From a virus, in the IMG/VR virus record IMGVR_UViG_3300024344_002588, positions 1 to 21,289 of that record: a stretch of 21,289 nucleotides of DNA; one strand, given 5' to 3'. A program made the position numbers and the translations under genes. Shown here one piece after another: positions 2,896 to 20,496 of the stretch (positions within the stretch are counted from its first letter, which is position 1; the number at the start of each line of letters is the position of its first letter). The notes under the pieces were generated by a model. It was not told where the DNA came from and did not search any database. It worked only from the letters and a program-made list of their open reading frames with translations.

Positions 2896-2909
2896 AATAA
2901 ACTCCTATG

Positions 2910-3338
2910 CTATATTTCACCACGTCCTTTAAGGATTTCAGCATTTTTTAAATGCTCCGCTTCGATATCATCTTTACTCTGCCCATGATACGCAACGGCA
3001 TAATTATTTTCAACAAGATATTTATTTACGTCAATATCATCAACTTCAAGGATTCCTAAAATTCTACCGAATTTGCCTCTCTCGTCACCGATAATAGTTT
3101 TGAGTTCTATGCTAGATCCCACAGGGCAAAATTCTTTGATTTTATCTTTAGCAAGAAGTCCTCTTTTCTTTTCTTCTAAATCACGAGTTCGGGATTCAGG
3201 AGTATCTATGCCATAAAGACGGACTCTTTGTTTTCTTAACCATACGGAAAATCCTAGGTCAAGGTCAACATCAACGGTATCTCCGTCTATGATTTTTATT
3301 ATTTTAGCACGGTAGGAAAATGTTCTATTTTTTGTCAT
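2910..3338 (-). CDS. Thermonuclease (staphylococcal-nuclease-like, SNase fold)
   Basis: This 142-aa protein has the full SNase signature. IIDGDTVDVDLDLG (residues 16-29) carries Asp20, which corresponds to a Ca2+ ligand. RVRLYGIDTPESR (38-50) carries Arg40, Asp45 and Glu48, matching R35/D40/E43 of Staphylococcus nuclease, and GKFGRILG places Arg92 at the R87 position. The catalytic set therefore looks intact. No signal peptide is visible, so it probably acts inside the cell on DNA or RNA. It sits 4 nt downstream of the Cys-rich 63-aa gene and 14 nt upstream of the 2OG oxygenase gene, within the leftward block. The ribosome site is weak (AGGT about 11 nt upstream). Possible roles are host DNA breakdown or recycling of nucleotides. 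Confidence 0.9.
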   Translation of the reverse strand: MTKNRTFSYRAKIIKIIDGDTVDVDLDLGFSVWLRKQRVRLYGIDTPESRTRDLEEKKRGLLAKDKIKEFCPVGSSIELKTIIGDERGKFGRILGILEVDDIDVNKYLVENNYAVAYHGQSKDDIEAEHLKNAEILKGRGEI

Positions 3339-5220: not shown

Positions 5221-5488
5221 TTATAGTAAACAACAAATTCAGGAACAAGCTCGAAACGGAATTATCAATGTCCGTTTTACTAAGGTAAATGGTGAAGAAA
5301 GAGTTATGAATTGCACTCTTCTTTCTGAATATTTACCGAAGCAGATGGATTTTTCTGAAAGTAAACCAAACGATCAAGTTCTTTCTGTTTGGGATGTTGA
5401 TATAGGAGGTTGGCGTTCATTTCGCGTTGAAAGTGTCTCAGATGTCGGTCCACAAATGCTTACTGAAGATATGATTGGACCGCAATGA
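5213..5488 (+). CDS. WYL_2/DUF2693-like SH3-barrel phage protein
   Basis: The 91-aa protein shows the pattern of a small family typical of T4-like phages: INVRFTKVNGEERVMNCTL (about residues 18-36), then LP, and near the end VWDVDIGGWRSFRVESV (about 59-75). The family is predicted to form an Sm/SH3-like beta barrel related to WYL domains, which bind nucleic acids or small ligands (family knowledge). I chose ATG 5213 over 5192 or 5207 because GTGGAGG at 5198-5204 is 8 nt upstream of it. It ends in an ATGA overlap with the GT4 gene. It may be a small regulator; no target can be deduced. Confidence 0.7.
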   Translation: MGNYSKQQIQEQARNGIINVRFTKVNGEERVMNCTLLSEYLPKQMDFSESKPNDQVLSVWDVDIGGWRSFRVESVSDVGPQMLTEDMIGPQ

Positions 5489-6531
5489 CTAAGTTAAATG
5501 TAACAGGATTAACCAGTGGTTCTGATAAGTTTACTCGGAAAACGACTAAACCACGAGATGGGCAACTGATAGCTGGTAATAAGGAAATTCCTGCACCTTC
5601 AGAAAATGGTACTTATACCGAAAGTCGGGGTGGAACTGAAATGATGTTGGAGGGTCTACGTGAACGTGTTGACCCTGAACTGCTGGATAAATTTCATATT
5701 ATATGTTCACGTGTTCGAAGCATTAGCGAGGATAAGCAAAATATTCTCTGGATGCATGATACTTGGGATGACCCTGAGTGTGAACATTTAAAAGACCCTG
5801 AATCACGAAAACGGTTTGGGAAAATTGTATTCGTGAGTAATTATCAACAGGCAACATTTAATATGGGTCTTGGAGTTCCTTATTCCGAGGGTCTCGTTAT
5901 TCAAAATGCAATAGTTCCGATTGAGGAACACGAGAAACCTAAAGATGATACGATTAATCTGATTTATCATACCACCCCGCATAGAGGACTTGAAATACTT
6001 GTTCCAGTTTTTGAGCATTTTCGGAAGGTAAAACCAGAACAGAAACTTCATTTGGATGTTTATTCATCTTTTGAAATTTATGGATGGGCAGATAGGGATA
6101 AGCAATATAAAGAAATTTTGGATAAATGTAAAGAGCATCCTGATATCACTTATCATGGATACCAACCCAATCATGTTGTCCGAGATGCCCTCAAGAAAGC
6201 ACACATATATTCATATCCGAACATATGGCCCGAAACAAGCGGAATTTCTATTATAGAAGCGATGAGTGCTGGTTGTTCGGTTGTTGCTCCTAATTTTGCG
6301 GCAATACCTGAAACTCTTGGCAATTTTGGAATAATGTATAATTGGAATGAGGATGTGAATAAGCATGCCAATACTTTTGCTCAGGCATTGGATGCGGCAT
6401 TAACAATTCATTGGGAAGATAACGTACAGAACAAACTCAAATTTCAGGCAATGTACGTTAATAATTTTTACAATTGGGATCTTCGTACTACCCAGTGGAC
6501 GGGATTCCTACAGAGTATGGAGAACCTATAA
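5485..6531 (+). CDS. GT4-family glycosyltransferase (GT-B fold)
   Basis: The 348-aa protein has a GT-B C-terminal domain with YSYPNIWPETSGISIIEAMSAG. The EX7E motif (E250 and E258) binds the nucleotide-sugar donor, and CSVVAPNFAAIPET follows. A middle segment INLIYHTTPHRGLEILVPVF (about 156-175) is the usual start of the second Rossmann half. The N-terminal domain is short but contains GGTEMMLEGL, the acceptor-side glycine motif common in GT4. No membrane segment is visible, so it is probably cytosolic. It starts in an ATGA overlap with the WYL_2-like gene and ends overlapping the next tiny gene. It could glycosylate modified DNA bases or surface glycans; the TET/JBP locus further right favours DNA, but this is inference. 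Confidence 0.88.
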   Translation: MTKLNVTGLTSGSDKFTRKTTKPRDGQLIAGNKEIPAPSENGTYTESRGGTEMMLEGLRERVDPELLDKFHIICSRVRSISEDKQNILWMHDTWDDPECEHLKDPESRKRFGKIVFVSNYQQATFNMGLGVPYSEGLVIQNAIVPIEEHEKPKDDTINLIYHTTPHRGLEILVPVFEHFRKVKPEQKLHLDVYSSFEIYGWADRDKQYKEILDKCKEHPDITYHGYQPNHVVRDALKKAHIYSYPNIWPETSGISIIEAMSAGCSVVAPNFAAIPETLGNFGIMYNWNEDVNKHANTFAQALDAALTIHWEDNVQNKLKFQAMYVNNFYNWDLRTTQWTGFLQSMENL

Positions 6532-6653
6532 TGGAATTGTTGGATTATTTATGTGGATTTTTTACTGGTGCCACATTGGCGTTCGTTATTGTTATGATCA
6601 TGGAGTGTAGAGATATTCGAAAAAGATTAAAGGAATGGGGAGACTCGTTATGA
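6531..6653 (+). CDS. Tiny one-TM membrane protein (40 aa)
   Basis: The ATG at 6531 overlaps the stop of the GT4 gene (TAATG). The 40-aa product has one hydrophobic helix, about residues 8-24 (CGFFTGATLAFVIVMIM), followed by a basic, charged tail (ECRDIRKRLKEW). The ATGA overlap with the next tiny membrane gene supports coupled translation. Function unknown; two tiny membrane proteins in a row recall phage accessory lysis or envelope proteins. Confidence 0.55.
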   Translation: MELLDYLCGFFTGATLAFVIVMIMECRDIRKRLKEWGDSL

Positions 6654-6796
6654 GTGTAGGAATGGTTATATTTCATGTCCTGTTTATCAGCGCATGTGTT
6701 GGTGCGTCTTGGTGGATGGGGTATAAAGCTGGTCGTATGGACGAAAAAGATATCGTGCAGTGGGCAAAAAATAAAAATAATGAAAATAAGCCTTGA
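6650..6796 (+). CDS. Tiny one-TM membrane protein (48 aa) ending inside a promoter
   Basis: The 48-aa product has an N-terminal hydrophobic segment (about residues 4-22, VGMVIFHVLFISACVGASW) and a charged tail. It begins in an ATGA overlap with the 40-aa gene. Its stop codon TGA (6794-6796) lies inside the -35 box TTGACA of the next promoter, and its last residues (…NKP) are encoded by the conserved promoter-upstream block. Function unknown. Confidence 0.55.
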   Translation: MSVGMVIFHVLFISACVGASWWMGYKAGRMDEKDIVQWAKNKNNENKP

Positions 6797-6821
6797 CAAT
6801 TGAGGCTTTATAGTTTACAAT
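6793..6821 (+). promoter_or_regulatory. Sigma70-type promoter P2
   Basis: -35 TTGACA (6793-6798), 17-bp spacer, -10 TACAAT (6816-6821). The block AAAATAAGCCTTGACAATTG (6783-6802) is repeated at the promoters at 18080 and 20510. AAGCCT before and AGGCTT after the -35 region (6788-6808) form an inverted repeat, so the same DNA could fold as a small hairpin. The predicted transcript start (near 6828) coincides with the first base of the structured RNA. Confidence 0.88.
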
Positions 6822-6827
6822 GGTTGT

Positions 6828-6944
6828 TATAGTTAAGGAGTGTGGTGGGGCGTTCTCCCCACAAAAACTAGAAGCGACGACGACGGTGGTCACTTCATCA
6901 GCATGAAAGCGTTATTCACACTCCTTAACTATCGCGTCTTTTTT
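6828..6944 (+). ncRNA. Candidate structured RNA with a perfect 16-bp closing helix
   Basis: ATAGTTAAGGAGTGTG (6829-6844) is the exact reverse complement of CACACTCCTTAACTAT (6917-6932). Directly stacked on the first strand is a hairpin, GTGGGG (6845-6850), loop CGTTCT, CCCCAC (6857-6862). A weaker hairpin TTCAT/ATGAA with a CAGC loop lies at 6893-6906. Six T's (6939-6944) follow six bases after the closing helix. The predicted transcription start of P2 falls at its 5' edge. The whole fits a roughly 117-nt multi-branched RNA: either a stand-alone small RNA or a 5' leader/attenuator of the 377-aa gene whose ATG is 20 nt beyond the T-run. I do not recognise a known riboswitch, ribozyme or tmRNA core. 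Confidence 0.7.
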
Positions 6945-6963
6945 CTAATGATAGAGGTCTATT

Positions 6964-8097
6964 ATGGCAAAGAAACCAAGGAAGGCATCGAAAACTCTAA
7001 CTCAATCCTTCTATGGCGATGAACCAACTTGGGAAGATCAACATGAACTTTCCGAAGATGAACTAAAATCAAAGATGCTTCGTGCATATAACTGGTATAA
7101 TTATATGCTGGACCGGAAAAAATATAAGGGGATCGTTGTCAGATATCTCCAATCCATCAAAATGAATAAGAAAACCATTTCAGCAATTAAATCATTAGAG
7201 GATTATAGGTTTTCTACGGTTGCTGATCTATGTAGTATGATGGAACAAGGTTTAGATTTACCTGATGATAGCAGAATTTGGTTAGATGAACAGATATCAT
7301 CTTTTAAATCTCTTGCTGATCAAAAGAAAGCAGAAAAGGTTATAGAAGCTGCTCCAAAAGCAAAGGTAATTTCAATTCAAGAACGTGTTCAGAATGCGGC
7401 GAATGAACGTATCGCTGAATTGGAGCAAGAAATTGATGACTTCGTCAACGCCAAATGCAAGAGTGAATTTTCTATGTATGATTGGTTGCAGAGTTCGGAT
7501 ATTAAACCAATGATTGCTTCAAAGATCGGTGAATATTATGTTCCTGTAATGGAAGAAGCTGAGCTGGCAGTGTCTGGTGAAGATGAACAGGTAAACGAGG
7601 CATATAAGTTTATCACCAAGAAACAACGTGTTCAGTTGTTTGAATTTCTGTCCATGATTGTTGATGATGCTCGTAAATTTGGCAGCAATAAACGTAAGGT
7701 TCGGCAACCTAGGAAAAAGAAATCTATGTCTGTACAGCAAATCGTTAAGAATGTACAGTACATGGAAGAAGATCCATCCCTAAAAATAGCAAGCATTGAT
7801 CCATCTAAGGTTATTGGTGCATCAGAACTTTGGGTCTATTGGACAAAATATAAAGCATTGTTTCACTATGTTGCCATCGATCGTGGCGGTCTTACATTTA
7901 AGGGAACTTCTATTAAAAATTATGATGAGAAGCTGTCTAAATATAAGGTTCTCCGCAAACCGGAAGAAACTATCGAGAAAATTTTAAATGGTGGACCGAA
8001 AGCAATTATTAAAAGATTTGATGAACTTACTACAAAAGCAAAAGATTGTAATGGTCGACTAAATAAAATGACGGTCTTATTGAGGGTGATTAATTGA
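6964..8097 (+). CDS. Conserved-looking phage protein of unknown function (377 aa)
   Basis: The product is soluble, Lys-rich and largely helical. The start MAKKPRKASKTLTQSF is basic. RAYNWYNYMLDRKKYKG lies at about residues 41-57. A coiled-coil-like segment lies near 135-160 (RIAELEQEIDDFV). A very basic patch KRKVRQPRKKK lies at about 244-254, and the C-terminal part has WVYWTKYKALFHYVA. I recall related proteins of unknown function in T4-like marine phages but cannot name a domain. The basic patches suggest DNA or RNA contact (inference). AGAGG upstream supports ATG 6964. The gene lies just downstream of P2 and the structured RNA, which may control it. Its stop overlaps the TTG start of the next gene. 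Confidence 0.75.
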   Translation: MAKKPRKASKTLTQSFYGDEPTWEDQHELSEDELKSKMLRAYNWYNYMLDRKKYKGIVVRYLQSIKMNKKTISAIKSLEDYRFSTVADLCSMMEQGLDLPDDSRIWLDEQISSFKSLADQKKAEKVIEAAPKAKVISIQERVQNAANERIAELEQEIDDFVNAKCKSEFSMYDWLQSSDIKPMIASKIGEYYVPVMEEAELAVSGEDEQVNEAYKFITKKQRVQLFEFLSMIVDDARKFGSNKRKVRQPRKKKSMSVQQIVKNVQYMEEDPSLKIASIDPSKVIGASELWVYWTKYKALFHYVAIDRGGLTFKGTSIKNYDEKLSKYKVLRKPEETIEKILNGGPKAIIKRFDELTTKAKDCNGRLNKMTVLLRVIN

Positions 8098-8438
8098 ACG
8101 ATTCAGCAAATACCAATCTCATACAGTTTCCAAAATCTGCAATTATTAAACGCGAAAACATAGTTGCTTTGCATAAAAACAAAGAGTCAGTTGAGGCAAC
8201 TCAAAGGGAACTGATTTCTCAGATGATCGACTATCATGCTCATCATTTGGTACAGGTATTTGCATTAGATGGCATCGATATTGAGTCAGAAGATTTTGAT
8301 AAACTTTTTGCTCTATCTATTGAATGCCTTCGTGCTACAGTTTATAACACTTTAGACTTACATCATCCGCTTTTGCCAGTGTTAAAGGATATGGCAGAAA
8401 AAGTTGAAATGGCAGTTGATGTAAAGGAAGAGGAATAA
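8094..8438 (+). CDS. Hypothetical 114-aa phage protein (TTG start)
   Basis: The start is TTG at 8094, overlapping the TGA stop of the 377-aa gene (TTGA). A good ribosome site GAGGGTG lies just upstream. The 114-aa product has a short N-terminal LIQFPK motif seen in many phage hypotheticals, then a helical His-rich stretch (MIDYHAHHLVQVF, about residues 43-55), and ends in an acidic tail (VDVKEEE). There is no membrane segment and no recognised domain. It ends in TAATG with the flavoenzyme gene, so the three genes are likely translated together. Confidence 0.65.
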   Translation: MNDSANTNLIQFPKSAIIKRENIVALHKNKESVEATQRELISQMIDYHAHHLVQVFALDGIDIESEDFDKLFALSIECLRATVYNTLDLHHPLLPVLKDMAEKVEMAVDVKEEE

Positions 8439-9133
8439 TGTCGGTTTACATCTCCCCACCATTTGGTAATTATGTTGGGTATGGTAGATGCGTTCGGATA
8501 CGAGGAACCTATACCTGGGAAAGAAGAACAGGATTGATTAAACAGATTGCTCGCACTCTTAGGAAAGTTCCAGGAGGGTGGATTAATAAGATTGGGTTCC
8601 GTAACTGTGGAGCGCAGAACTTAAAGAAGTGCGACCGCGAGGCGGTTTATTCTATTGCTGCTTTGGATAGTGATTGGACCCCTTTTATTGAAAAGCCCCC
8701 TTCATGGAGTAAATTAGAAATCAATATAGGTTGTCCCAATGTTAGCGGTTATTCAATAACAGATGATGAAGTGAAACGATTTGTTAACAGGTTTCCTATG
8801 CTTCAGGTTAAATTTAGTCCAACTGATAATATGCCTGATGATGTTGCTAGAATGTATAATTTAGGAGTGAAAGTATTTCACCTTTCTAATACTATTCCAA
8901 CTAACAGGGGTGGCATCAGCGGAAGGCAACTCAAGGAAGTCAATCTTCCATTAATAGAAAAGGTTGCCAATATGGATTTAAAGGGAACTGCTATAATAGC
9001 AGGTGGGGGAATATATACTCCTCAGGATGTCAGAGATTATAAGAATGCAGGTGTGACTTCTTATAGTTTGTCTACAATTTGGTTCACACCTTGGAAGGTT
9101 CCAGCGGTTTATCAGGAGGCACTAAAATGTTAA
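8438..9133 (+). CDS. Short dihydroorotate dehydrogenase-like FMN TIM-barrel protein
   Basis: The 231-aa protein carries the C-terminal half of the DHOD/dihydrouridine-synthase barrel: LEINIGCPNVSGYS (about 89-102, equivalent to N-x-SCPN), LQVKFSP (Lys that contacts FMN), VKVFHLSNTIPTNRGGISGRQL (SNT and GG-SG phosphate-binding motifs), then AIIAGGGIYTPQDVRDYKNAGV. Typical DHODs are 300-340 aa, so this one is shortened, with a remodelled N-terminal third. It could reduce or oxidise a pyrimidine, for example dihydroorotate, a uridine in RNA, or an odd pyrimidine nucleotide of the phage. The family assignment is fairly safe; the substrate is unknown. The ATG follows GGAAGAGGA and is coupled to the upstream stop. 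Confidence 0.72.
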   Translation: MSVYISPPFGNYVGYGRCVRIRGTYTWERRTGLIKQIARTLRKVPGGWINKIGFRNCGAQNLKKCDREAVYSIAALDSDWTPFIEKPPSWSKLEINIGCPNVSGYSITDDEVKRFVNRFPMLQVKFSPTDNMPDDVARMYNLGVKVFHLSNTIPTNRGGISGRQLKEVNLPLIEKVANMDLKGTAIIAGGGIYTPQDVRDYKNAGVTSYSLSTIWFTPWKVPAVYQEALKC

Positions 9134-9513
9134 AAGCAATGATGATAATTGCCATGGTTGGCGGTGTGAGTGTAGACTCTACAAGTGAATACGAATCTAT
9201 GCACGAATGCAAGGTTGTAAAACAAATTATCATGAAGCAAGATGAGGATGCTAAAGTATATTGCGTCCCTGTTGCTCGTTCAAAGGTGGATCAATTGTTT
9301 GATAAATTTATGAAGCTGGTAAGAGAAATGCAACAGTTGGGTGAAGAAGAAAAGGTTCCAAATGAAAATTGGTTATCGAAGTGCCGTGAAGGGTGGGGCG
9401 ATTTGGAACGCAATTTCTTTGACGATAGCGTTAAGAAACAATGTAGCGGTGCGACAATTCAAAGGCGATTTAAATTGAAATTGCCAGACACTGTTCCGGA
9501 TATTCGAGGGTGA
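9127..9513 (+). CDS. Small putative exported protein (128 aa)
   Basis: The ATG 9127, with AGGAGG (9114-9119) upstream, was chosen over the longer frame from 9079, which lies within the flavoenzyme gene. The N-terminus MLKAMMIIAMVGGVSVDS is a short hydrophobic stretch that may be a signal sequence. The mature part has four Cys (CKVV, YCVP, SKCR, KQCSG) that could pair in the periplasm. It overlaps the flavoenzyme stop by 7 nt and is the last gene before promoter P3. No family recognised. Confidence 0.6.
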   Translation: MLKAMMIIAMVGGVSVDSTSEYESMHECKVVKQIIMKQDEDAKVYCVPVARSKVDQLFDKFMKLVREMQQLGEEEKVPNENWLSKCREGWGDLERNFFDDSVKKQCSGATIQRRFKLKLPDTVPDIRG

Positions 9514-9522
9514 AAAATAAAT

Positions 9523-9551
9523 TTGACAATTGACGTCATCACCTATATAAT
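9523..9551 (+). promoter_or_regulatory. Sigma70-type promoter P3
   Basis: -35 TTGACA (9523-9528) with the shared ATTGAC extension, 17-bp spacer, consensus -10 TATAAT (9546-9551). It is the strongest match of the six to the sigma70 consensus. Transcription would begin near 9558, giving a leader of about 26 nt before the RNase H gene. It probably drives the long operon that includes the TET/JBP locus. Confidence 0.88.
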
Positions 9552-9583
9552 GAAATGATGAATGATAATACGTTGGAAATAAT

Positions 9584-10462
9584 ATGATTTTGGTTGATTT
9601 AAATCAAGTGATGATATCGAACCTTATGATACAACTCAAACATTCTGGTGGGGTTGTTGAGGAGGGTCTGATGCGGCATATGGTTCTCAGCAGTTTGCGG
9701 AAATATCGTGGTCTATTTTATGAAAAGTATGGAGAACTTGTAATTTGCTGTGATGATAAGAGTTATTGGAGAAAAGATCTATTCCCTTATTATAAAGCAT
9801 CAAGAAAGAAAGATCGTCAGGCATCTTCAATTGATTGGAATACTGTATTCGTCACGTTAAACAAAATTCGTGATGAAATTCGTGAAAATATGCCATATCT
9901 TGTTATTCAAGTTCCTCATGCCGAAGCTGATGATATTATTGCCGCTCTTTGTCACGAGTTTGGTCATACTTCTTCCAGACCTATTGGTGAACCAATTCTA
10001 ATTTTGTCTGGCGATAAAGATTTCGTACAACTTCAAAGATATTATAATGTGGATATTTACAATCCCATTCTTAAGAAAGAAGTGAGGGTGGACAACCCTG
10101 AACGATATTTACGAGAGCACATTATGTTAGGGGATAGGGGTGATGGTGTTCCTAATTTCCTTTCTGATGATGATACGTTTGTCGAAGGAAAACGTCAGAA
10201 ACCTATTTCCCGTGTAAAATTAGCTGAGTGGTGTGAAAAAGAACCGCAAGAGTTTTGCACGAAGGAGATGCTTGATGGTTATATGCGGAATAAGTCACTT
10301 GTTGATTTAACCGAAATTCCTCAAGAAATAAAGGATAAGACTTTGGAGCAATATTATGTCTATCACCTTGCTCCAGACATTCAAAATCCAAGATCAAAAA
10401 TCATTGAATATTTTATGAAGAAGAAACTGAAGAAACTTATGTCTGATGTTCAGGCATTCTAG
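9584..10462 (+). CDS. rnh: T4 RNase H-like 5'-3' exonuclease (FEN family)
   Basis: The 292-aa protein is close in size to T4 RNase H (about 305 aa) and keeps the acidic metal-site ladder: D5 in ILVDLNQ, D57/D58 in CCDDKSYWRKDLFPYYKASR, E114/D116/D117 in HAEADDIIAALC, D144/D146 in ILSGDKDFVQL, and D184/D187 in GDRGDGVPNFL. This family removes RNA primers and flap 5' ends during lagging-strand replication together with the phage polymerase, clamp and ssDNA-binding protein. The start is placed by promoter P3 about 25 nt upstream, with only a weak ribosome site (TTGGAAAT). The stop overlaps AGGAGG of the next gene. It is a strong marker of a T4-like phage genome. Confidence 0.9.
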   Translation: MILVDLNQVMISNLMIQLKHSGGVVEEGLMRHMVLSSLRKYRGLFYEKYGELVICCDDKSYWRKDLFPYYKASRKKDRQASSIDWNTVFVTLNKIRDEIRENMPYLVIQVPHAEADDIIAALCHEFGHTSSRPIGEPILILSGDKDFVQLQRYYNVDIYNPILKKEVRVDNPERYLREHIMLGDRGDGVPNFLSDDDTFVEGKRQKPISRVKLAEWCEKEPQEFCTKEMLDGYMRNKSLVDLTEIPQEIKDKTLEQYYVYHLAPDIQNPRSKIIEYFMKKKLKKLMSDVQAF

Positions 10463-10471
10463 GAGGTTAAT

Positions 10472-10891
10472 ATGGTTGCTACACCTTTGAGTGAAATTGT
10501 AAAGAGTATTGAATCTAAGAAAACGATCAAACAGCAGGCTGAGGCGATAAAAGAAAACGACTCACCTGCTCTAAAAGAAATTTTTGTGATGTCCTGTTGT
10601 CCTGTTGTAGAGTGGCAACTTCCTGCGGGAAAACCACCCTATGAACCCTTGACCAAAGAACAGGGAGTCGACCAAGAAGGGCGATTATATTCTGAGGTTA
10701 AGAAACTTGATTTATTTGTCAATACACCGCAGGGTTTAGAAATTTCCTCTATGAAAAGAGAGCAAGTTTTTATTGAATTATTGGAAACAGTGCATCCGGA
10801 TGATGCGCTACTCCTTATTAGAATGAAGGAGAAAAACCTGAAGGTCAAGAAGGGTGCTTTAGAAGAAGCATATCCGGGAGAACAATGGTGA
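10472..10891 (+). CDS. DUF6433-like phage protein
   Basis: The 139-aa protein has the layout I associate with DUF6433 proteins of T4-like phages. An N-terminal helix is followed by ALKEIFVMSCCPVVEWQLPAG with KPPYEPL (about residues 30-57), then SEVKKLDLF. Next comes REQVFIELLETVHPDDALLL (about 90-109), followed by a MKEKNL helix, and the end is EAYPGEQW. The function is unknown; the conserved LHPDDA-type segment suggests a small helical scaffold, not an enzyme. AGGAGG at 10461-10466, overlapping the RNase H stop, places ATG 10472. The 3' end overlaps the next gene by 7 nt. Confidence 0.65.
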   Translation: MVATPLSEIVKSIESKKTIKQQAEAIKENDSPALKEIFVMSCCPVVEWQLPAGKPPYEPLTKEQGVDQEGRLYSEVKKLDLFVNTPQGLEISSMKREQVFIELLETVHPDDALLLIRMKEKNLKVKKGALEEAYPGEQW

Positions 10892-11127
10892 CTGAAAAAT
10901 ATTTAGATACTCGAACTGCTAACCATTTAGCAGCATTAATGAGTGAAGTTGAAATCCTTAAAGGCAGGATACAACCACATGATACAGGTCATATTCACAC
11001 AACTATCAATGTTCTAGAATCACGCATTACAGAACTAAGAGAAAGCGTGAAAGCAGAAGCACCTGTTCAGCATGCTACAACGACTTGGCACGATGTGCGG
11101 GAAGTTAAATGGCAGGAAGAGCATTGA
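10885..11127 (+). CDS. Small conserved-looking phage protein (80 aa)
   Basis: The 80-aa acidic and helical protein has a central DTGHIHTTINVLESRITELR segment (about residues 32-51) that looks like a short coiled coil. It has no membrane part. Its start overlaps the end of the DUF6433-like gene, and GGGAGAAC gives a ribosome site. Its 3' end overlaps the next gene by up to 19 nt. I recall similar small proteins in T4-like marine phages but know of no function. Confidence 0.6.
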   Translation: MVTEKYLDTRTANHLAALMSEVEILKGRIQPHDTGHIHTTINVLESRITELRESVKAEAPVQHATTTWHDVREVKWQEEH

Positions 11128-11808: not shown

Positions 11809-12039
11809 ATGTATATTACAGGTTACGATCTATTGACAATATTGATGTTGCTTGGGTTGGTAATGATATCAATGTATATTGGGTATCGATATCAGAAAAA
11901 CAATGTAAAATTTTATGCGCAGGTAGTTGATGAAGTTCTTGATAATTTGAAAGATGATGGTATTATAATCATTAAAGAAGAAAACGGTGAATTGGAAATT
12001 TATAGTGGATATAAACATGACCCAAAAACTACACCTTGA
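11809..12039 (+). CDS. Small one-TM membrane protein (76 aa)
   Basis: The N-terminal hydrophobic helix (about residues 5-26, LLTILMLLGLVMISMYIGY) is followed by a cytosolic acidic domain (VVDEVLDNLKDDGIIIIKEENGELEIY). AGAGGAA precedes ATG 11809. The 3' end overlaps the TET/JBP gene start by 23 nt. The C-terminal domain resembles small phage proteins with a beta-rich IIIIKEENGELEIY pattern; I do not recognise a family. A membrane tether for a neighbouring enzyme is possible but unsupported. Confidence 0.6.
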   Translation: MYITGYDLLTILMLLGLVMISMYIGYRYQKNNVKFYAQVVDEVLDNLKDDGIIIIKEENGELEIYSGYKHDPKTTP

Positions 12040-13342
12040 AAATATATTTCGTAGCAAAAAAGAGGCAGACGATACTCTTGGCGGTAAATTCATAGATCAT
12101 GATGCTTATGATATCCTCATAACAGAGGACACGGATGTATATAAAAAGTCCGGTCTTTTTGAGGAGGAGTCCGAGTCTAATTTGTTGCTCAAATTCCGCA
12201 AGAACGTGATACCTCAAGAAAAGGTTCGCGCTGCTTATGATGGTTTGAGGCATGGTGCTAGTCTTACAGATAATCGTGGTCTTGCGGCAGGAACAGAGAA
12301 ACAAGAATATCAACAGTTGATAACAGCACAAGGTTCATCCTCAGGCAAACGTAGATGGGTCACAGAACGTGAATCAGTTTGCCTTTCTTATATGATGAAA
12401 GGTTCAGTTAAGGATATCTATGGGGAAGACCAGTTAGAAAGTTTATGGAATAGTGTTAGTCCTAATCCAATCCCAGGAAGAGGCGGTGCTGGTCTTATCG
12501 GTGGCGGTTCCATATGGGTTGTTGAAAGGGTTAAAGATTTCGATATCAATGGTTGGTTTGAGTCGACTTTTGATATGGATACTGAGGAACGATATGCAGC
12601 TGCTTCATCAATTTTGAATGATAAGATTTCATCTACTACATATGGAAACGGTGTATATTCAGGTACTGCCGGATACATGGATAGATATCCTCGTATTCCA
12701 TTTTGCCGTGAAACTGCTTGGACTGCTGCTAATAAAGAAAGGTTCAATTCAGGAATACCTATGATGGAAGAATGTTCTAAGGTATTTCAGCGTGAGGTTC
12801 CATCACGGTGGCAGGGACAGAAAGATTGTATTGATCAACTATCGGAAGATTGGCGAATAGGGGATACGGTCTACACAACTATCACACTCAATAGGGATTT
12901 TCGTACAGCATGCCATCGTGATGCGGGTGACTTATGTGAGCAACCAGAAGATCGAGCAGTTCCTCGTGGATTCAGTAATCTCACTGCTATGACAAATGGA
13001 AAAGAGTATGAAGGGTTCTATCTTTGTTTTCCTGAGTACAAAGCAGCTGTTGATATTCGTGATGGCGATTTACTCATGATGGATGCTCATCAAATTCATG
13101 CAAACACACCTCTTATATCAGGAGAAGAGGGTATCGAGCGGTGTAGTGTTGTATTATATTTCCGTGAAGCAATGTTAGGTTGTGATTCACTAAAGCATGA
13201 GAATATGCGTCGTGATTTTGTATACGACAGGAAAGAGCGTTTAGCAGGTAAGGACGGGCGACCTAAGAATTACAATGGCATAGACCCAGACATATTTTTT
13301 TCAGAGGAGTGGAAAGATTGGCAGAGCACATATAATGTATAA
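12017..13342 (+). CDS. TET/JBP-family 5-methylpyrimidine DNA dioxygenase
   Basis: The 441-aa protein (ATG 12017, preferred over the longer frame from 11987) has a C-terminal 2OG-Fe(II) core in the TET/JBP style. ITLNRDFRTACHRDAGD has H300 and D302 as the HxD pair. GFSNLTAMTNGKEYEGFYLCFPEY and VDIRDGDLLMMDAHQIHANTP follow, with H361 (or H358) as distal ligand, and RCSVVLYFRE has R375 for 2-oxoglutarate. All catalytic residues appear present. The family oxidises the 5-methyl group of thymine or 5-methylcytosine in DNA to hydroxymethyl (and sometimes further) using O2 and 2OG. The N-terminal ~220 residues are not recognised. In phages it commonly starts a hypermodification pathway; the next genes here (FkbM methyltransferase, aGPT-PPlase-like) fit that. 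Confidence 0.85.
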   Translation: MTQKLHLENIFRSKKEADDTLGGKFIDHDAYDILITEDTDVYKKSGLFEEESESNLLLKFRKNVIPQEKVRAAYDGLRHGASLTDNRGLAAGTEKQEYQQLITAQGSSSGKRRWVTERESVCLSYMMKGSVKDIYGEDQLESLWNSVSPNPIPGRGGAGLIGGGSIWVVERVKDFDINGWFESTFDMDTEERYAAASSILNDKISSTTYGNGVYSGTAGYMDRYPRIPFCRETAWTAANKERFNSGIPMMEECSKVFQREVPSRWQGQKDCIDQLSEDWRIGDTVYTTITLNRDFRTACHRDAGDLCEQPEDRAVPRGFSNLTAMTNGKEYEGFYLCFPEYKAAVDIRDGDLLMMDAHQIHANTPLISGEEGIERCSVVLYFREAMLGCDSLKHENMRRDFVYDRKERLAGKDGRPKNYNGIDPDIFFSEEWKDWQSTYNV

Positions 13343-14069
13343 AACGTACAAAGGAGTCTATGTACGAGACGGTCTTGCTGTCGATAAGAATATGGTAAGA
13401 GATTGTTTCCGACATTATGATAAGTTTGGTAGCAAGCACTCTCTTAAAGATGCTGTTGTCATGGATTGGGGTATGAATATTGGTGGGTTCGGTTACATGA
13501 TGTTGCGGGAACCCATTAAACAGTATATTGGTATCGAACCGCATCCAGATAATTTTGAGGTTGCCAAGGCGAATCTAGGTCATGACCCGAGAGCAGTTTT
13601 AATTCAAGCAGCGGTTACAAACGAACCTGTGGATTCTATAGAACTTCACCTCACAAACTCAAAGCAAAATTATTGTTCAGGAACTATTAATTTAAAGAGC
13701 AAAGCTGCTGCCAGTTTACGTCAGACTAAGATAGATGTCCCTACAGAACAAGCAAATGAGTTGATGGAGAAATATAAACCAACTCATTTCAAATGTGATA
13801 TCGAGGGTGAGGAATATAGAATTTTTGATAGCTGGGACTGGAAGTTTCCTGAATGCGTCAAAGAAATGGCAGTAGAGTTTCACTGGCAGGATAAGGTTTT
13901 ATCCTATGAAAATGGGTGGAGATCTAAAATCCTTGATAACGACTTTGATCCTGTCTACGAAAATTTGAATTATGTGAAAGGTGATACAGAATTCACTTGG
14001 CAAAACTCTCCAGCATCATATAGAAATATTTGGGGAATAGACTGCTTTTATGAGAAGCGCATTGACTAA
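13335..14069 (+). CDS. FkbM-family SAM-dependent methyltransferase
   Basis: The 244-aa Rossmann methyltransferase shows VVMDWGMNIGGFGYMML (SAM-binding glycine loop, about residues 37-53), IGIEPHPDNFEVAKANL (acidic residue for the ribose), then HFKCDIEGEEYRIFDSWDW (the FkbM signature K-D-IEG-E, about 151-169). FkbM enzymes are typically O-methyltransferases on sugars, polyketides or similar hydroxyls. The start overlaps the TET/JBP stop by 8 nt (ATGTATAA), and the 3' end overlaps the next gene by 20 nt, so it is tightly coupled to the DNA-modification genes. It may methylate a hydroxyl of the added group on the hypermodified base or of a glycan (inference). Confidence 0.85.
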   Translation: MYKTYKGVYVRDGLAVDKNMVRDCFRHYDKFGSKHSLKDAVVMDWGMNIGGFGYMMLREPIKQYIGIEPHPDNFEVAKANLGHDPRAVLIQAAVTNEPVDSIELHLTNSKQNYCSGTINLKSKAAASLRQTKIDVPTEQANELMEKYKPTHFKCDIEGEEYRIFDSWDWKFPECVKEMAVEFHWQDKVLSYENGWRSKILDNDFDPVYENLNYVKGDTEFTWQNSPASYRNIWGIDCFYEKRID

Positions 14070-15207
14070 GTATCTGCACCCAGACAATCGTGATAAACCA
14101 TATGTGGATTGGCGTCTACCTGAAAATAGAATAGAGATGTGTCTTCGGTCATATGGTTGGCGAATGAAGCATCGTGATGTAGACCATCATACTTACAATG
14201 AAGCATACATGAATCAAGGTTCTATGAGTGATGAGCAGAGGATCTATTTTTCTATGCTGTTTGGTATAACTTATCAATCATCAATGGCGTGGGTGATTTG
14301 GTCGCATTTTCCTGATATCGAAAAGATAAACTGGAAAACTCTCGAAGACTGGAATAATGAAAATTATGCTCGACAACATTTTTCAAAAGACACAAAATAC
14401 AACAAAGGCAAGTTTATTCCTATCCTAAAAGATATTCATGAAAAGGTTCTAGAAAAGCATGGAACCCTCAGATCATGGATTAACACGTTTCAGGATTTCG
14501 ACCATGCGCTCAAAGAGGTTATGACAATTTATAGGATAGGACGTATGTCTGGTTGGTTAACAACTCAGGCATTTTATGAGCAATGTGCTGGAATGAGTCA
14601 TATTGTACCGAAAAATATGTTAGCAACTGATCCGTCAAATTGGTCAGTAAGATCAGGACTGGTTTACATTTATAACAAACCGGAATTGATGGATTTGGAT
14701 AGCAAAAAGAAATACAGCAGTGATGACCTAAAATGGATTGAAAGTCGTGAGCAGGAATTCATAGAGTCTTGCGCTGAATTTGTATTGCCCACTGATATGT
14801 CTAGTCCATTCACATTAGAAACGCATCTGTGTCAGTATAAGAAAATGATTGCGACTGGCGGCGACGCTCCGGGAACCCCAACTCAGGATGCGTACACTCG
14901 TTGGTATAAGTTAAAACAAGCATGGTCAGAGCTTGAGTGGGATTTTTATGAGGATGTATCAAAATATTCTGCACCTTGCGTAAGGAAAACATTTCAGAAT
15001 AAGATTCTTATGAAGACAGGCGCAATGACAGGTCAAATGATTAATATGCATGAGGACAATGAGGATTTGCCTGATATGTATAAAGAGTTCGGTGTAAATC
15101 AGTCATGGCTTACTGACTTCAATAATTTTGGGAGAATAGAAATAAAGAATAATTTTAATAATTATGTTGAAAATCAAGGAAAATCGATTTACGATTTTAT
15201 TCACTAA
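14050..15207 (+). CDS. Amino acid:DNA transferase-like (aGPT-PPlase clade 2-like) protein
   Basis: The 385-aa helical protein has features I associate with alpha-glutamyl/putrescinyl thymine pyrophosphorylase clade 2 (amino acid:DNA transferase). These include EQRIYFSMLFGITYQSSMAW (about residues 61-80), then VIWSHFPDIEKINWKTL, WNNENYARQHFSKDTKYNKG, and a C-terminal MHEDNEDLPDMYKEFGV. Proteins of this group act on phosphorylated or pyrophosphorylated 5-hydroxymethylpyrimidine in DNA and join an amine or amino acid to it (family knowledge). Recognition is from memory of the pattern, so moderate confidence. The gene starts inside the FkbM gene (ATG 14050, or TTG 14062 with a closer GAGAAG). It is the step expected after TET-type hydroxylation and a DNA kinase; no kinase is visible here. 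Confidence 0.62.
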   Translation: MRSALTKYLHPDNRDKPYVDWRLPENRIEMCLRSYGWRMKHRDVDHHTYNEAYMNQGSMSDEQRIYFSMLFGITYQSSMAWVIWSHFPDIEKINWKTLEDWNNENYARQHFSKDTKYNKGKFIPILKDIHEKVLEKHGTLRSWINTFQDFDHALKEVMTIYRIGRMSGWLTTQAFYEQCAGMSHIVPKNMLATDPSNWSVRSGLVYIYNKPELMDLDSKKKYSSDDLKWIESREQEFIESCAEFVLPTDMSSPFTLETHLCQYKKMIATGGDAPGTPTQDAYTRWYKLKQAWSELEWDFYEDVSKYSAPCVRKTFQNKILMKTGAMTGQMINMHEDNEDLPDMYKEFGVNQSWLTDFNNFGRIEIKNNFNNYVENQGKSIYDFIH

Positions 15208-15273: not shown

Positions 15274-16413
15274 ATGAATGCAGTTAAAAATAGAAAGATT
15301 CGTATAGCGGTTGTTGGAGTTGGCAATTGCTCATCTGCCCTTTTACAAGGCATTAATTATTATCGCCATCGAAACCAAAAGGATGTCCCAGGAGTCATGT
15401 ATCCAAATATAGGTGGGTACGACGCTGACGAGATAGAAGTTGTTGCGGCATTTGATGTGGATAAGAGAAAAGTTGGTAGTCCCATCAGTGAAGCAATATT
15501 CAGTGATCCCAATAACACCCCAACATTTCATACTGATATTGATGATGACACAGTAGTGGAAATGGGTATGCCTCTTGATGGTGTTGCCTCGCATATGGCA
15601 GATTACCATGAGGATGTAAATTTTAAAGTATCTGATGAACCTCATGCTGATATTACAAGGATATTGAAAGACCGAGAGGTGGATATCGTTGTTAATTATC
15701 TTCCCGTTGGGTCCCAGAAAGCAACTGAATTTTATGTCAATGCTGCTATTCAAGCAGACGTTGCATTTTTGAATTGCATTCCGGTTTTCATCGCTTCTAA
15801 TCCGATTTGGGAGAAACGATTTGTTGATGCGGGATTACCTATAGTTGGTGATGATATGAAATCACAGTTTGGTGCTTCAATATTGTCTCAGGTTTTACAG
15901 GAAACTTTATTCAATCGAGGACACAGCGTGGAGTTCCATCAGCAGTTGAATGTGGGAGGAAACAGTGACTTTGCTAATATGATGGACCAGTCTCGTTTAG
16001 CATCAAAGAAAACATCCAAGGAAAATGTAATACGCAGTCAGAATGATATTCGCGGTATTCCTGTTCCTAAAGACGGTATCTATGCTGGACCGTCTTCGTT
16101 TATTCCTTATTTGAAAGACAACAAGGTTGCTTACATTAAAGTGTTAGCGCATGGATTTGGTGGTGCCGAAGTTGAAATTGATTGTAAGTTGTCGGTACAG
16201 GATAGTCCTAATTCGGCAGGAGTCGTTATCGACGCTATTCGGTTCTTGAAAGTTGCCCGTGAAATGGGTATTGTTGGATCCCTTCGTGGACCATCAGCTT
16301 GGACTCAAAAAACTCCACCGGAACAGATGACCATTGAAGATGCTAAGTTAGAGTGTGACGCTCTTGCTGATCGTTCATTTACAAACCTGACGGAGACTCA
16401 ACGTGCTGTATAA
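15274..16413 (+). CDS. Myo-inositol-1(3)-phosphate synthase (actinobacterial Ino1-like)
   Basis: The 379-aa enzyme matches bacterial inositol-phosphate synthase along its whole length. An NAD-binding start IRIAVVGVGNCSSALLQGI (about residues 9-27) is followed by YDADEIEVVAAFDVDKRKVG, VDIVVNYLPVGS, NCIPVFIASNPIWEKRF with AGLPIVGDDMKSQFGAS, QLNVGGNSDFANM, and a C-terminal LAHGFGGAEVEIDCKLSVQD. The family converts glucose-6-phosphate to inositol phosphate via an NAD+-dependent oxidation, aldol closure and reduction. The gene has its own ribosome site (AAAGGAGA) after a 66-nt gap that contains a weak inverted repeat (15212-15217/15240-15245). Such an enzyme is very unusual in phages and points to inositol as a building block. 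Confidence 0.9.
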   Translation: MNAVKNRKIRIAVVGVGNCSSALLQGINYYRHRNQKDVPGVMYPNIGGYDADEIEVVAAFDVDKRKVGSPISEAIFSDPNNTPTFHTDIDDDTVVEMGMPLDGVASHMADYHEDVNFKVSDEPHADITRILKDREVDIVVNYLPVGSQKATEFYVNAAIQADVAFLNCIPVFIASNPIWEKRFVDAGLPIVGDDMKSQFGASILSQVLQETLFNRGHSVEFHQQLNVGGNSDFANMMDQSRLASKKTSKENVIRSQNDIRGIPVPKDGIYAGPSSFIPYLKDNKVAYIKVLAHGFGGAEVEIDCKLSVQDSPNSAGVVIDAIRFLKVAREMGIVGSLRGPSAWTQKTPPEQMTIEDAKLECDALADRSFTNLTETQRAV

Positions 16414-16849
16414 CATGAGAGATTGGTCGCAACCTTATAATGTAAAATTAGGTGAAGGTCGCTTATTTGGTAAGTCTAAAAAACTTAAGATCAATACATT
16501 TGATTATGATGGCGTCATCAATTTGGGTCATGGATATACTGGAGTCAAACCTTGCGAAAAGGATATCATAGTCACAGGCAAACCTATCAGCGAGTACACT
16601 GAGCTTCGCACGAAACTTGATAGCATGGACATAAATAACCATGTGATTATGAATCCTATTTCTCGTAGCAGTGCTGAATATGGTCGAGAAGCGAGTGGGA
16701 AATGGAAGGCAAAAGTTCTGACGCTGCTTAAAGAGTGTTATGATATCGGAATTCATTTTGAGGATGATCCGATACAGATTGAGGAAATTCGCCAAAGGCA
16801 CTCGGATATAGAAATTGTCTATCTTAGACATGGATTGGTGGAGAGATGA
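16403..16849 (+). CDS. HAD-like phosphatase (DxD nucleophile)
   Basis: The 148-aa protein has the HAD motif I as INTFDYDGV (D34, D36), a central HVIMNPISRSSAEYG, a Lys-rich KWKAKVL helix and the final acidic motif HFEDDPIQIEEI (residues about 119-130), as in HAD phosphatases. The product is short and lacks a large cap. The GTG start at 16403 has GGAG 7 nt upstream; ATG 16415 is the alternative but lacks a well-placed site. It overlaps the stop of the inositol-phosphate synthase gene and ends in ATGA with the CmoA-like gene. It may dephosphorylate inositol phosphate, a sugar phosphate or a nucleotide; adjacency favours the first, but that is inference. Confidence 0.7.
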   Translation: MLYNMRDWSQPYNVKLGEGRLFGKSKKLKINTFDYDGVINLGHGYTGVKPCEKDIIVTGKPISEYTELRTKLDSMDINNHVIMNPISRSSAEYGREASGKWKAKVLTLLKECYDIGIHFEDDPIQIEEIRQRHSDIEIVYLRHGLVER

Positions 16850-17541
16850 AGTTTACGTTCGCACAAAGACCTGAAGGTTTCGATGAGCATATTGATCTAT
16901 CAATCCGCAGGTATTCTGACCTGTGGAATGACGTTATTAAGATATCCGAGTATTTCATAGAGGATGATACTTGGGTCTATGATATAGGTTGTTCAACTGG
17001 TAAATTGATAAGCGCGATGGTAGAGCGGAACACTTGGGTTCAAGATGTAAAATGGGAGGGAATAGAAATTGAAGAAGATTTCTTTGGTTATCCTGGTTTG
17101 GATCAACTCGAAGATGAATTTCGTCAAAAAGAAAAATCTGTGTATTTCAGGAATCGTGATGTCCGTGAGACCATATTTTTTGAAAACACCTCATTTGTGA
17201 CATCTATTTTCACATTACAGTTTATGCCTAGAGCTGATAGACTCGAAACGGTAAAAAGGATATACAAGGCATTAAACAAGGGTGGTGGGTTTGTTTTTGC
17301 TGAAAAGACTATGTCTCCTCATAGTATGATTCATGATATCCGAACCTTCACCTATTATGATTTCAAGCGTGAAAACTTTGATTATGAAGATATTATGACC
17401 AAAGAGCAGGAACTGAGGCACATGCAGAAACCCGATACACGCAATGACCTGATTGATATGTGCAAGGATGCTGGGTTCGAGCAGATAGACTCGTTTTGGC
17501 AGAATCATTCTTTTACGGGATTCATTGCGATTAAGCCTTGA
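16846..17541 (+). CDS. CmoA-like SAM-binding protein (carboxy-SAM synthase homologue or methyltransferase)
   Basis: The 231-aa protein follows CmoA closely in layout. FDEHIDLSIRRYSDLWNDVI near the N-terminus is followed by the SAM loop VYDIGCSTGKL, then FTLQFMPRADRLETVKRIYKAL, GGGFVFAEK, YDFKREN, and a C-terminal DAGFEQIDSFWQNHSFTGF. CmoA makes carboxy-S-adenosylmethionine from SAM and prephenate for tRNA wobble-uridine modification. By my eye alignment with E. coli CmoA from memory, the Arg that holds the carboxylate (R199) corresponds to Glu187 or Gln188 here. It may therefore be an altered transferase. It starts in ATGA with the HAD gene, and its TGA stop lies inside the -35 of promoter P4. 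It may supply a one-carbon or carboxymethyl group for base modification. Confidence 0.7.
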   Translation: MKFTFAQRPEGFDEHIDLSIRRYSDLWNDVIKISEYFIEDDTWVYDIGCSTGKLISAMVERNTWVQDVKWEGIEIEEDFFGYPGLDQLEDEFRQKEKSVYFRNRDVRETIFFENTSFVTSIFTLQFMPRADRLETVKRIYKALNKGGGFVFAEKTMSPHSMIHDIRTFTYYDFKRENFDYEDIMTKEQELRHMQKPDTRNDLIDMCKDAGFEQIDSFWQNHSFTGFIAIKP

Positions 17542-18108: not shown

Positions 18109-18132
18109 TAATCATAATTGAGAGAGAGAACG

Positions 18133-20496
18133 ATGACAACCACCACTCCTAATCTTGACAAGCTGACGAATCTTCTAGCAACCGAAAATATCACGGTTGA
18201 ACACCGCAAGGTTCCTACAGCTTCATTTGACGTAAAATCTCGAATCCTCACTCTTCCTTTGTGGAAAGAAATGAGTAAGGAATTATATCACCTCTTGATC
18301 CTCCATGAGGTTGGTCATGCTTTATATACTCCCGAGGAAGACTGGGTTGATGCAGTCAAGGACAGCAAGAAACTCAAAGGATATGTGAACGTTGTAGAAG
18401 ATGCTCGTATCGAGCGGAATATGAAAAACAAATATCCTGGGTCACGTCGGGATTTCACGGTTGGATATAAAGAAATCTATGACCGAGACATTTTTGGTGT
18501 TAAATATAAACCAACCGAAAAAATGAATTTTATCGACCGTGTAAATCTATATTTCAAATTAGGTTCCTCTATGGATGTCACGTTTTCATCTGAGGAAATG
18601 AAATATGTGGAACGTGTAGAGTCTACCACAACTTTTGATGATGTCGTTCTTCTTTCAGAAGAAATGCTTGCTTATGCAAAAGAAACTGCTGAAACTGATG
18701 AAGATCACGATTTCGGTGAAATGAGTGATGAGTTCGGTGATTGGGATGAAGATGGCGACTTCGAGGAGAGTGGTGACAATGGTAACATAGCGGATTCCAA
18801 ATCCGAAGACGAGGGTTCGACTCCTTCCTCTCCTGCCAACTCAGAAAAAACTGATGAAGAAACTGATGATGAAGAAACTGATGGCGAAGGTGAAGGTGAT
18901 TTTGATGCCAGCGGTGAATATGACGATGATGACGGTGAAAATGATTCAGGTGGTCGCAATGGCGGTGATGACTGGAACGATAAAGTAACTGCCACGACTG
19001 ATGAAAATCTAGAAAAAAATATGATTGATCAGTTAGTCGACGAGTCTGCTATTCCTACGACTTATGTCGAGCTCAAGAGGTTGTATGATTATAAAAAACA
19101 TATAATTCCTTACAAATTAATTCAGGATACTATTCGTATTTTCCGTGCCGACATGAGAAAGGGTCTTATCTATCCAGAGGATCCTTCTTTACCTGAGCGT
19201 GTAAAAGAGTGGGATGCAAATACTGAAACTCGATATTCCGAGTTTGTCTCTGCCAATAAGAAAAATGTCCTGTATCTTGTAAAAGAGTTTGAGATGAAAA
19301 AAGCAGCTGATCAGTATAGCAGATCCCGTGACGCAAAAACTGGTGTTATTGATCCTACTAAGTTACATTCCTACAAATACAGTGAAACCATTTTCAAACG
19401 CATTTCGGTTCTTCCTGACGCTAAAAACCATGGATTGGTCATGTTAGTCGATTTCTCTGGTTCAATGGCAGAAAATATGAAAGGAACAATCGAGCAATTG
19501 GTAAATCTTGTTATGTTTTGTCGGAGGGTCAATATCCCCCATCGTGTTTATGGATTTATCGATAATATCAGGACCGAAGATTATTATGAAGGATTGAAGG
19601 AAGTATTTTCATCTTATAAAATGAAAAAAGATGGGTTGTTGGATAGAAGTAACTGCTGCCTCATGGAATTATACACTGAGAAGATGAATAATTCAGATTT
19701 TGTTGAAATGACCAAATACCTGCTAGATTTTGGTAGCGAATGTCATTATCACTATGGTGGTAGATACACTCGTGGATGGTACACCCAAGAAAATAGAGGT
19801 CTGACAGCTTGGAGGTCAACTGTTCTTTCTCTTGGTGGAACCCCATTAAATCAATCTTTGGTTTATTGTAGAGATCTGATTAATGATTTCCGGAAAGAAA
19901 CCAATTCCCAGATAGTAAATTTCGTTTGTTTGACCGACGGTGAATCCAATGGTTTCTCGTATGATAGGGATCATCTAATAGCAGCTGGTCATTATGATGA
20001 TACTGGTAACCTAGTTGGTTCTCGTCACTTGATAATCCGTGATCCTATCACAAAATTGACCAACAAGGAAGAATATAGGAATAATCGGCATGGGCAAACT
20101 GAATATATGCTGAATGTCATTCGGAAATCGTGTGATGTTAATATCATCAACTTTTACATTACTCCAGAACGTGGTTATCCTTATAACCTTATTAAAATGA
20201 TAGGAGAATCTCGCGCAAATGCTGGTAAAAATCCTTGGATTGATGATGATGAAGTCAAAGAAATCAGGAAATTATGGAGAAAACAAAAGCATATGAGTGT
20301 TCCCAACACGGCAGGATTCGATGAGGTTCACGTGATTATGGGTGGTGACGCATTAGAAACTGAGGCAACCAGTTTAGACGATATCCCAGTTGGTGAAACC
20401 AAAGGTAAAATGGCGCGTGCTTTCATTAAGGCGAACAGCAAGCGCAAAACCAGTCGTGTTATCCTGAGTAAATTTATTGATAAAATAGCTGCTTGA
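18133..20496 (+). CDS. CobT-like protein: HExxH peptidase-like N-terminus plus VWA domain
   Basis: The 787-aa protein (ATG 18133; the in-frame TTG at 18118 lies ahead of the ribosome site) has three parts. The N-terminal domain has a zinc-peptidase-like helix LHEVGHALYTPEED (H58-E59-x-x-H62) and VEDARIERNMKNKYPG. A strongly acidic, repetitive linker (about residues 189-284, rich in D/E/G/S) follows. The C-terminal VWA domain has a MIDAS: VDFSGSM (D440, S442, S444), GGTPLN (about T569) and CLTDGES (D602). Such CobT-like proteins pair with CobS/MoxR-type AAA+ ATPases, as here, and occur in T4-like phages although no cobalamin pathway is present. A chaperone-like or remodelling role on an unknown client is likely. 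The combination with HExxH suggests it might also cleave. Confidence 0.85.
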   Translation: MTTTTPNLDKLTNLLATENITVEHRKVPTASFDVKSRILTLPLWKEMSKELYHLLILHEVGHALYTPEEDWVDAVKDSKKLKGYVNVVEDARIERNMKNKYPGSRRDFTVGYKEIYDRDIFGVKYKPTEKMNFIDRVNLYFKLGSSMDVTFSSEEMKYVERVESTTTFDDVVLLSEEMLAYAKETAETDEDHDFGEMSDEFGDWDEDGDFEESGDNGNIADSKSEDEGSTPSSPANSEKTDEETDDEETDGEGEGDFDASGEYDDDDGENDSGGRNGGDDWNDKVTATTDENLEKNMIDQLVDESAIPTTYVELKRLYDYKKHIIPYKLIQDTIRIFRADMRKGLIYPEDPSLPERVKEWDANTETRYSEFVSANKKNVLYLVKEFEMKKAADQYSRSRDAKTGVIDPTKLHSYKYSETIFKRISVLPDAKNHGLVMLVDFSGSMAENMKGTIEQLVNLVMFCRRVNIPHRVYGFIDNIRTEDYYEGLKEVFSSYKMKKDGLLDRSNCCLMELYTEKMNNSDFVEMTKYLLDFGSECHYHYGGRYTRGWYTQENRGLTAWRSTVLSLGGTPLNQSLVYCRDLINDFRKETNSQIVNFVCLTDGESNGFSYDRDHLIAAGHYDDTGNLVGSRHLIIRDPITKLTNKEEYRNNRHGQTEYMLNVIRKSCDVNIINFYITPERGYPYNLIKMIGESRANAGKNPWIDDDEVKEIRKLWRKQKHMSVPNTAGFDEVHVIMGGDALETEATSLDDIPVGETKGKMARAFIKANSKRKTSRVILSKFIDKIAA

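Follow-up and report, generated by a model that had tools for sequence, protein, structure and literature searches.

Phage DNA is known to carry amino acids, polyamines, sugars, and 7-deazaguanines as decorations, and we know of no description of an inositol-modified DNA base. A full-text literature search returned neither inositol on DNA nor a function for phage-encoded myo-inositol-phosphate synthase (MIPS). In cells, MIPS is the entry to the phosphatidylinositol, di-inositol-phosphate, and mycothiol pathways. The closest described route of DNA decoration is the thymidine hypermodification of phages M6, ViI, and phi W-14, which involves 5hmdU, the kinase 5-HMUDK, and transferases (PMC6449724). 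Two further systems invite comparison, namely phage 7-deazaguanine DNA modification (Hutinet 2019, PMC6884629) and the glucosyl-hydroxymethylcytosine of T4. A phage MIPS gene was met in one text only: the authors of the Ps15 paper place it among bacteria-like genes, near 'queuosine' genes, and treat it as acquired (PMC9025141).

Here, we describe a phage locus in which a MIPS gene and a small HAD phosphatase gene overlap among putative base-modification genes. The locus lies in IMG/VR record IMGVR_UViG_3300024344_002588, positions 1 to 21,289 (the whole 21,289-nucleotide stretch analysed, hereafter ‘the window’), which is contained at 100% identity in the 43,161-bp IMG/VR contig IMGVR_UViG_3300009703_002664. 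Six genes, from TET to the CmoA-like gene, share one strand with overlaps of a few bases in most cases, an operon-like arrangement; a seventh feature follows on the longer contig:

11987..13342, + strand: TET/JBP 2-oxoglutarate/Fe(II) dioxygenase (PF12851 E 7.6e-13, above cut-off; possible true start ATG 12017)
13335..14069, + strand: FkbM-type methyltransferase (PF05050 E 2.7e-9)
14050..15207, + strand: ADDT-like (amino-acid:DNA transferase) enzyme (phrog_3271 E 7.5e-31, family relatives, fold)
15274..16413, + strand: myo-inositol-phosphate synthase (MIPS/Ino1) (PF01658, 1gr0, phrog_33138)
16403..16849, + strand: small capless HAD phosphatase, predicted inositol-phosphate phosphatase (motifs I–IV, fold, MIPS partnership)
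16846..17541, + strand: CmoA-like SAM enzyme (TIGR00740 100.8 bits, below the cut-off of 193; 1im8 YecO E 2.4e-19; phrog_4752 E 6.6e-53)
window-equivalent 24281-24898, about 3 kb past the right end: PLNK3 P-loop kinase (PF18751 57.8 bits, cut-off 27)

Beyond the window, the contig carries an AAA+ ATPase, a glycosyltransferase-like gene, and a sliding clamp in addition to the PLNK3 kinase. Because TET, PLNK3, ADDT-like, MIPS, and HAD genes all occur in the window or its contig, the steps of oxidation, activation, and transfer are predicted together with the inositol genes in one phage.

Other features of the same region are recorded for completeness. Two glycosyltransferases (1331-2266 and 5485-6531; GT10 and GT group 1) could also decorate DNA or the surface. 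On the minus strand, 2257-3338 holds a possible 2OG-Fe(II) oxygenase (weak, under cut-off) and a staphylococcal-nuclease homologue. A large phrog_459 ‘peptidase’ gene (18118-20496) is followed by an AAA_5/CbbQ-like ATPase (contig continuation 20566-21786), which together resemble a MoxR/CbbQ-type pair; a tRNA-Trp called by ARAGORN at 18764-18838 was set aside, as it sits within a coding gene. The family phrog_1574, distantly glycosyltransferase-like, adjoins the sliding clamp in many MIPS-type phages (L084:9436-10299 and equivalents; window-equivalent 22176-23036).

The synthase ORF (379 aa, ATG start, AAAGGAG upstream) scores 81 bits against PF01658 (cut-off 27), aligns over residues 7–360 with the Mycobacterium tuberculosis Ino1 structure 1gr0 (E 5e-94), and matches phrog_33138 (E 8e-160). 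Its K284, D310, and K346, invariant in 11 phage MIPS, align to K284, D310, and K346 of the mycobacterial enzyme, which we take to be the catalytic residues. The phage protein is therefore like bacterial and mycobacterial Ino1 (1gr0; TIGR03450) in its full-length homology and in its active-site lysines and aspartate, but it differs in scoring 342.6 bits against the mycothiol-type INO1 equivalog TIGR03450, below the curated 638; judged by sequence, the window gene is a MIPS, though not a TIGR03450 equivalog. The nearest bacterial MIPS by identity include those of Saccharibacteria MAGs (about 62–67%). A single recent acquisition by phages was considered but not adopted, the three locus systems described below being intermixed in a quick, poorly supported tree (28 state changes).

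The stop codon of the synthase (TAA 16411-16413) and the start of the HAD ORF (148 aa, GTG start; alternative start ATG 16415) overlap by 11 bp. Across an alignment of 36 relatives, conservation of HAD motifs I–IV (D34xD36, T58, K102, and E120-D121-D122) is complete or no lower than 90%, and the predicted model (pLDDT 89.7) has the HAD Rossmannoid fold, with the 3'-phosphatase domain of T4 Pnkp (5uj0) as its best match (probability 1.00, E 4.9e-4, TM 0.58/0.60). No Pfam or NCBIfam HAD family matched the window protein above cut-off, and neither did a PDB sequence search return anything above threshold; the HAD identity stands on motifs and modelled fold, and the substrate is not deducible from sequence. 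Public records mislead on this gene, the HAD of MIPS phages being labelled polynucleotide kinase or phosphoribosyltransferase.

These results bear out the first-pass annotation, which had described a near full-length synthase with the main family motifs, its stop overlapping the GTG start of a HAD-like phosphatase, directly after a TET/JBP and an ‘aGPT-PPlase-like’ gene. The TET/JBP assignment holds as well: the window protein scores 48.5 bits against PF12851 (cut-off 34.9), its profile finds TET2 as the closest relative of solved structure, and the iron ligands HxD (H310, D312) and H371 are invariant in 20 relatives. Phage TET/JBP genes carry the misleading label ‘SNF2 DNA repair protein’ in public records (L001, L003, L005). 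As for the gene at 14050-15207, its position before the synthase stands, but its family is reassigned to ADDT. The window copy gives no match to PF18724 (ADDT), and 21 of 24 aligned relatives do (best 1.3e-52); the AlphaFold model (pLDDT 88.9) finds the 5-PmdU glycinyltransferase PUGT (8z2m) as its best PDB match, and its BFVD matches, one of them from Salmonella phage 38, are named amino acid:DNA transferase (TM 0.52–0.74 by query). Among solved structures, PUGT is thus the closest in fold to the window protein, but the two share 12% identity (TM 0.42/0.53), PUGT uses a glycine donor, and the window protein is longer by about 100 aa. We predict that the ADDT-like enzyme transfers inositol in place of an amino acid.

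The likeness to M6, ViI, and phi W-14 lies in the order of events, with a hydroxymethyl-pyrimidine in DNA, its phosphorylation by a kinase, and then substitution by an ADDT-family transferase. In the window, however, TET is the predicted source of the hydroxymethyl group, MIPS and HAD would supply the moiety, and amino-acid enzymes are not adjacent. A further difference is phylogenetic, since the MIPS-linked ADDTs form a clade apart from those sampled that lack MIPS. The CmoA-like enzyme (carboxy-SAM synthase family) may add a further tailoring step to the decoration; its membership of the cluster is uncertain, and a 231-aa gene also comes after HAD in locus L019.

Among 50,697 phage records in INPHARED, MIPS occurs in 18 (16 Stenotrophomonas, 2 Caulobacter), and the HAD occurs in exactly those 18. 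A profile search of IMG/VR gave at least 184 MIPS relatives, of which the best 80 were examined, their locus gene content being scored with a panel of profiles and their domains named by profile match. Within these best 80, all 46 loci that extend 3 kb or more in both directions from MIPS have base-modification genes flanking it, and these loci fall into three mutually exclusive types with zero mixtures. Type A, to which the window belongs (22 loci), has the order TET-ADDT-MIPS-HAD-PLNK3. Type B (13 loci) reads NMAD1-hydroxymethylase-dCMP deaminase-MIPS-HAD-HMUDK_hel-glycosyltransferase-like-C5 methylase, and PLNK3 is absent from this cluster. Type C (11 loci), of the 7-deazaguanine kind, reads QueE-FolE-TGT-MIPS-HAD-QueC. 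The HAD was found in at least 68 of 78 MIPS loci (64 by the ORF panel and 4 more by tblastn), and of the 10 MIPS loci lacking it, 4 break off no more than 350 bp from MIPS. This HAD occurs in 0/80 bacterial MIPS loci, a second difference from bacterial Ino1, and for that reason the MIPS-HAD pair looks like a phage arrangement. FkbM genes are at most a few genes away from MIPS in 33/109 type A and 63/166 type B loci (loci overlap between scans), and FkbM possibly O-methylates the decoration.

Types B and C can each be set against a described system. Type B resembles T4 in having a gp42-like dCMP hydroxymethylase (E 5e-81, versus 3e-9 for thymidylate synthase) and a protein with a weak match to T4 BGT, but it adds MIPS-HAD and an HMUDK_hel-like protein, neither of which, to our knowledge, T4 possesses. 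Type C shares QueE, FolE, TGT-like, and QueC-like genes with phage 7-deazaguanine modification, but has MIPS-HAD directly adjoining QueC; we know of no inositol-bearing 7-deazaguanine. As a separate observation, the QueE of two loci is a 618-aa protein with an apparent intein-like insertion in the radical-SAM cysteine region, as read from sequence (L075:3057-4913, L076:3732-5588).

Searches were also anchored on each partner in turn; these locus sets overlap between scans and comprise the best 80 loci at most, so that the counts are samples and not frequencies. MIPS was present in 74/74 new loci anchored on HAD, in 72/76 anchored on HMUDK_hel, in 28/32 anchored on ADDT, and in 20/39 anchored on QueC, including most of the closer QueC relatives. 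Four HMUDK_hel loci lack MIPS: L299 and L305 start at a contig edge, L291 is short upstream, and L238 belongs to the Aeromonas group considered below. QueC-anchored loci without MIPS include L323, L328, L332, and L335 (44–51% identity). The TET-anchored set, which served as a mostly MIPS-less control, contained MIPS in only 2/76 loci, and TET was rejected as a predictor of MIPS. The co-occurrence of synthase and TET/JBP genes in related phages, which the first-pass annotation had proposed to survey and the lack of which it took as refuting, is found in other phage loci (type A), but TET is not the informative partner. Since MIPS is frequent in ADDT- and HMUDK_hel-anchored loci and rare in TET-anchored ones, the trait tracks the transferase and not the oxidase, and what tells is the presence of certain clades of base-tailoring enzymes (ADDT, HMUDK_hel-like, and QueC-like). 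Profile comparison detected no homology between the HMUDK_hel-like family and ADDT.

In a tree of 71 ADDT proteins, a clade of 49 rows splits off, at 100/100 support, from the 22 rows that lack MIPS. This clade consists of all 47 MIPS-linked members, L106, and L131, whose contig ends at ADDT; the window protein is represented by relatives 84–86% identical to it (L097, L098, L100), and the fine structure is left aside, as the tree has long branches (tool warning). In several phages, the slot beside MIPS-less ADDTs holds a class-II glutamine amidotransferase and a GNAT acetyltransferase, as expected if neighbouring genes supply the moiety that the transferase attaches. L106 and L107 keep ADDT, HAD, and kinase, and MIPS is absent from their 89–109 kb; in both, a radical SAM protein precedes the ADDT-HAD-PLNK3 locus (5817-10951).

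Among cultured phages, a close HMUDK_hel homologue is confined to the 44RR2.8t group of Aeromonas phages (19 records), which gave zero MIPS or HAD matches. All 19 carry a symporter of the SSF family, sodium/glucose type, and in 44RR2.8t (L514:3304-7284) the SSF sugar symporter gene adjoins that of a 795-aa protein with an HMUDK_hel-like C-terminal part, a pair that recurs in the 19 records. The SSF gene is absent from the MIPS phages tested. If the substrate is a free solute, importing it instead of making it would be consistent, which we regard as suggestive; the symporter may not carry inositol, because the solved structures closest to it are of glucose or galactose transporters.

We propose, with a probability of roughly 0.7 and on the strength of gene content, phylogeny, and fold, that MIPS and HAD make free inositol and that a local transferase attaches it to activated bases. 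In the scheme that follows, every substrate, bond, and product is inferred from the observed genes, motifs, folds, and co-inheritance. MIPS would convert glucose-6-phosphate to inositol-phosphate, which the overlapping HAD would dephosphorylate to free inositol in the infected cell; free inositol, not a nucleotide-activated form, is argued for by the presence of a phosphatase. Meanwhile, TET would make a 5-hydroxymethyl-pyrimidine in DNA, PLNK3 would phosphorylate it, and the ADDT-like transferase would let an inositol hydroxyl displace the phosphate, giving a 5-(inositol-O-methyl)-pyrimidine (an ether), which FkbM might O-methylate. An alcohol nucleophile has a precedent in ViI, where serine, joined through oxygen, gives the O-linked ether 5-NeOmdU. 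In other phages, the same MIPS-HAD module would supply the dCMP-hydroxymethylase/HMUDK_hel and 7-deazaguanine systems. QueC normally activates 7-carboxy-7-deazaguanine, and we speculate that in type C this constant neighbour yields an inositol ester on that base, no obvious inositol transferase of type C being known to us. The decoration would probably serve as protection against restriction and other DNA-targeting defences.

Several other readings of the same genes deserve weighing. It is unlikely, though a serious alternative, that the DNA is decorated with something other than plain inositol, either because an altered MIPS makes another cyclitol or because inositol is oxidised, aminated, methylated, or carboxymethylated before or after attachment. 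One homologue of MIPS, 6k96, works as a five-membered-cyclitol-phosphate synthase, but the phage MIPS is far closer to M. tuberculosis Ino1 (318 versus 197 bits; 396 versus 222 with a profile) and keeps the catalytic lysines. Further conversion would suit the FkbM and CmoA-like enzymes adjoining the MIPS-HAD pair, but no inositol dehydrogenase or aminotransferase was found among the recurrent MIPS neighbours.

Slightly less probable again is that nucleic acid or a phosphorylated base is the substrate of the HAD, in which case phosphoinositol may be the group attached. The HAD could have a substrate other than inositol-phosphate because its nearest fold is a nucleic-acid 3'-phosphatase; a weak match to phrog_415 polynucleotide kinase and the MIPS-less HAD genes of L106 and L107 point the same way. 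Yet the HAD gene comes after MIPS in all three of the unrelated base chemistries, even at 7-deazaguanine loci that have no PLNK3, and every locus of the HAD-anchored set contains MIPS, so the common partner of this HAD is MIPS and not a kinase.

That inositol serves host lipid, osmolyte, or redox metabolism during infection, unrelated to DNA, is very improbable: the cellular pathways that MIPS opens and the treatment of the Ps15 gene as an acquired bacteria-like one would favour it, but the CDP-alcohol phosphatidyltransferase PF01066 was found in 0/12 MIPS phage records by a search positive in 14/14 control genomes, every well-flanked MIPS locus (46/46) sits among base-modification genes, and MIPS correlates with clades of base-tailoring enzymes. 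Phosphohexomutase PF00408, sought as a mark of sugar-nucleotide supply, was absent in 11 phage records. Of the two roles that the first-pass annotation had raised, the phosphatidyltransferase result speaks against inositol-lipid or solute supply, and comparative genomics supports the idea of inositol-derived DNA decoration, in that three kinds of DNA-modification locus are almost the only places where MIPS-HAD occurs.

Returning to decoration by inositol, we give about an even chance to a broader statement: that inositol, or its O-methyl derivative, is a widespread and hitherto undescribed DNA decoration, installed through three unrelated base-tailoring chemistries (ADDT substitution of a phospho-hydroxymethyl group, a system built on HMUDK_hel that modifies hydroxymethylcytosine, and a QueC-like ligase acting on 7-carboxy-7-deazaguanine). 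A single mobile MIPS-HAD module would feed all of these, with an imported polyol in its place in Aeromonas phages. A simple inositol adduct and a hexose adduct are identical in composition (+C6H10O5), and mass alone cannot separate the two; such a base, having the same mass as a hexosylated one, could have been overlooked or mistaken for a glucosylated one. MIPS-HAD genes are found in several hundred environmental phage contigs and also in the cultured Caulobacter phage Cr30 and Stenotrophomonas Menderaviruses, so inositol decoration is testable now. If the proposal is true, inositol would be a new chemical class of DNA decoration, nucleosides heavier by 162 Da need not be glucosylated, one precursor module would have been swapped among unrelated base-modification pathways, and viral ‘auxiliary’ MIPS genes would be reassigned to genome protection.
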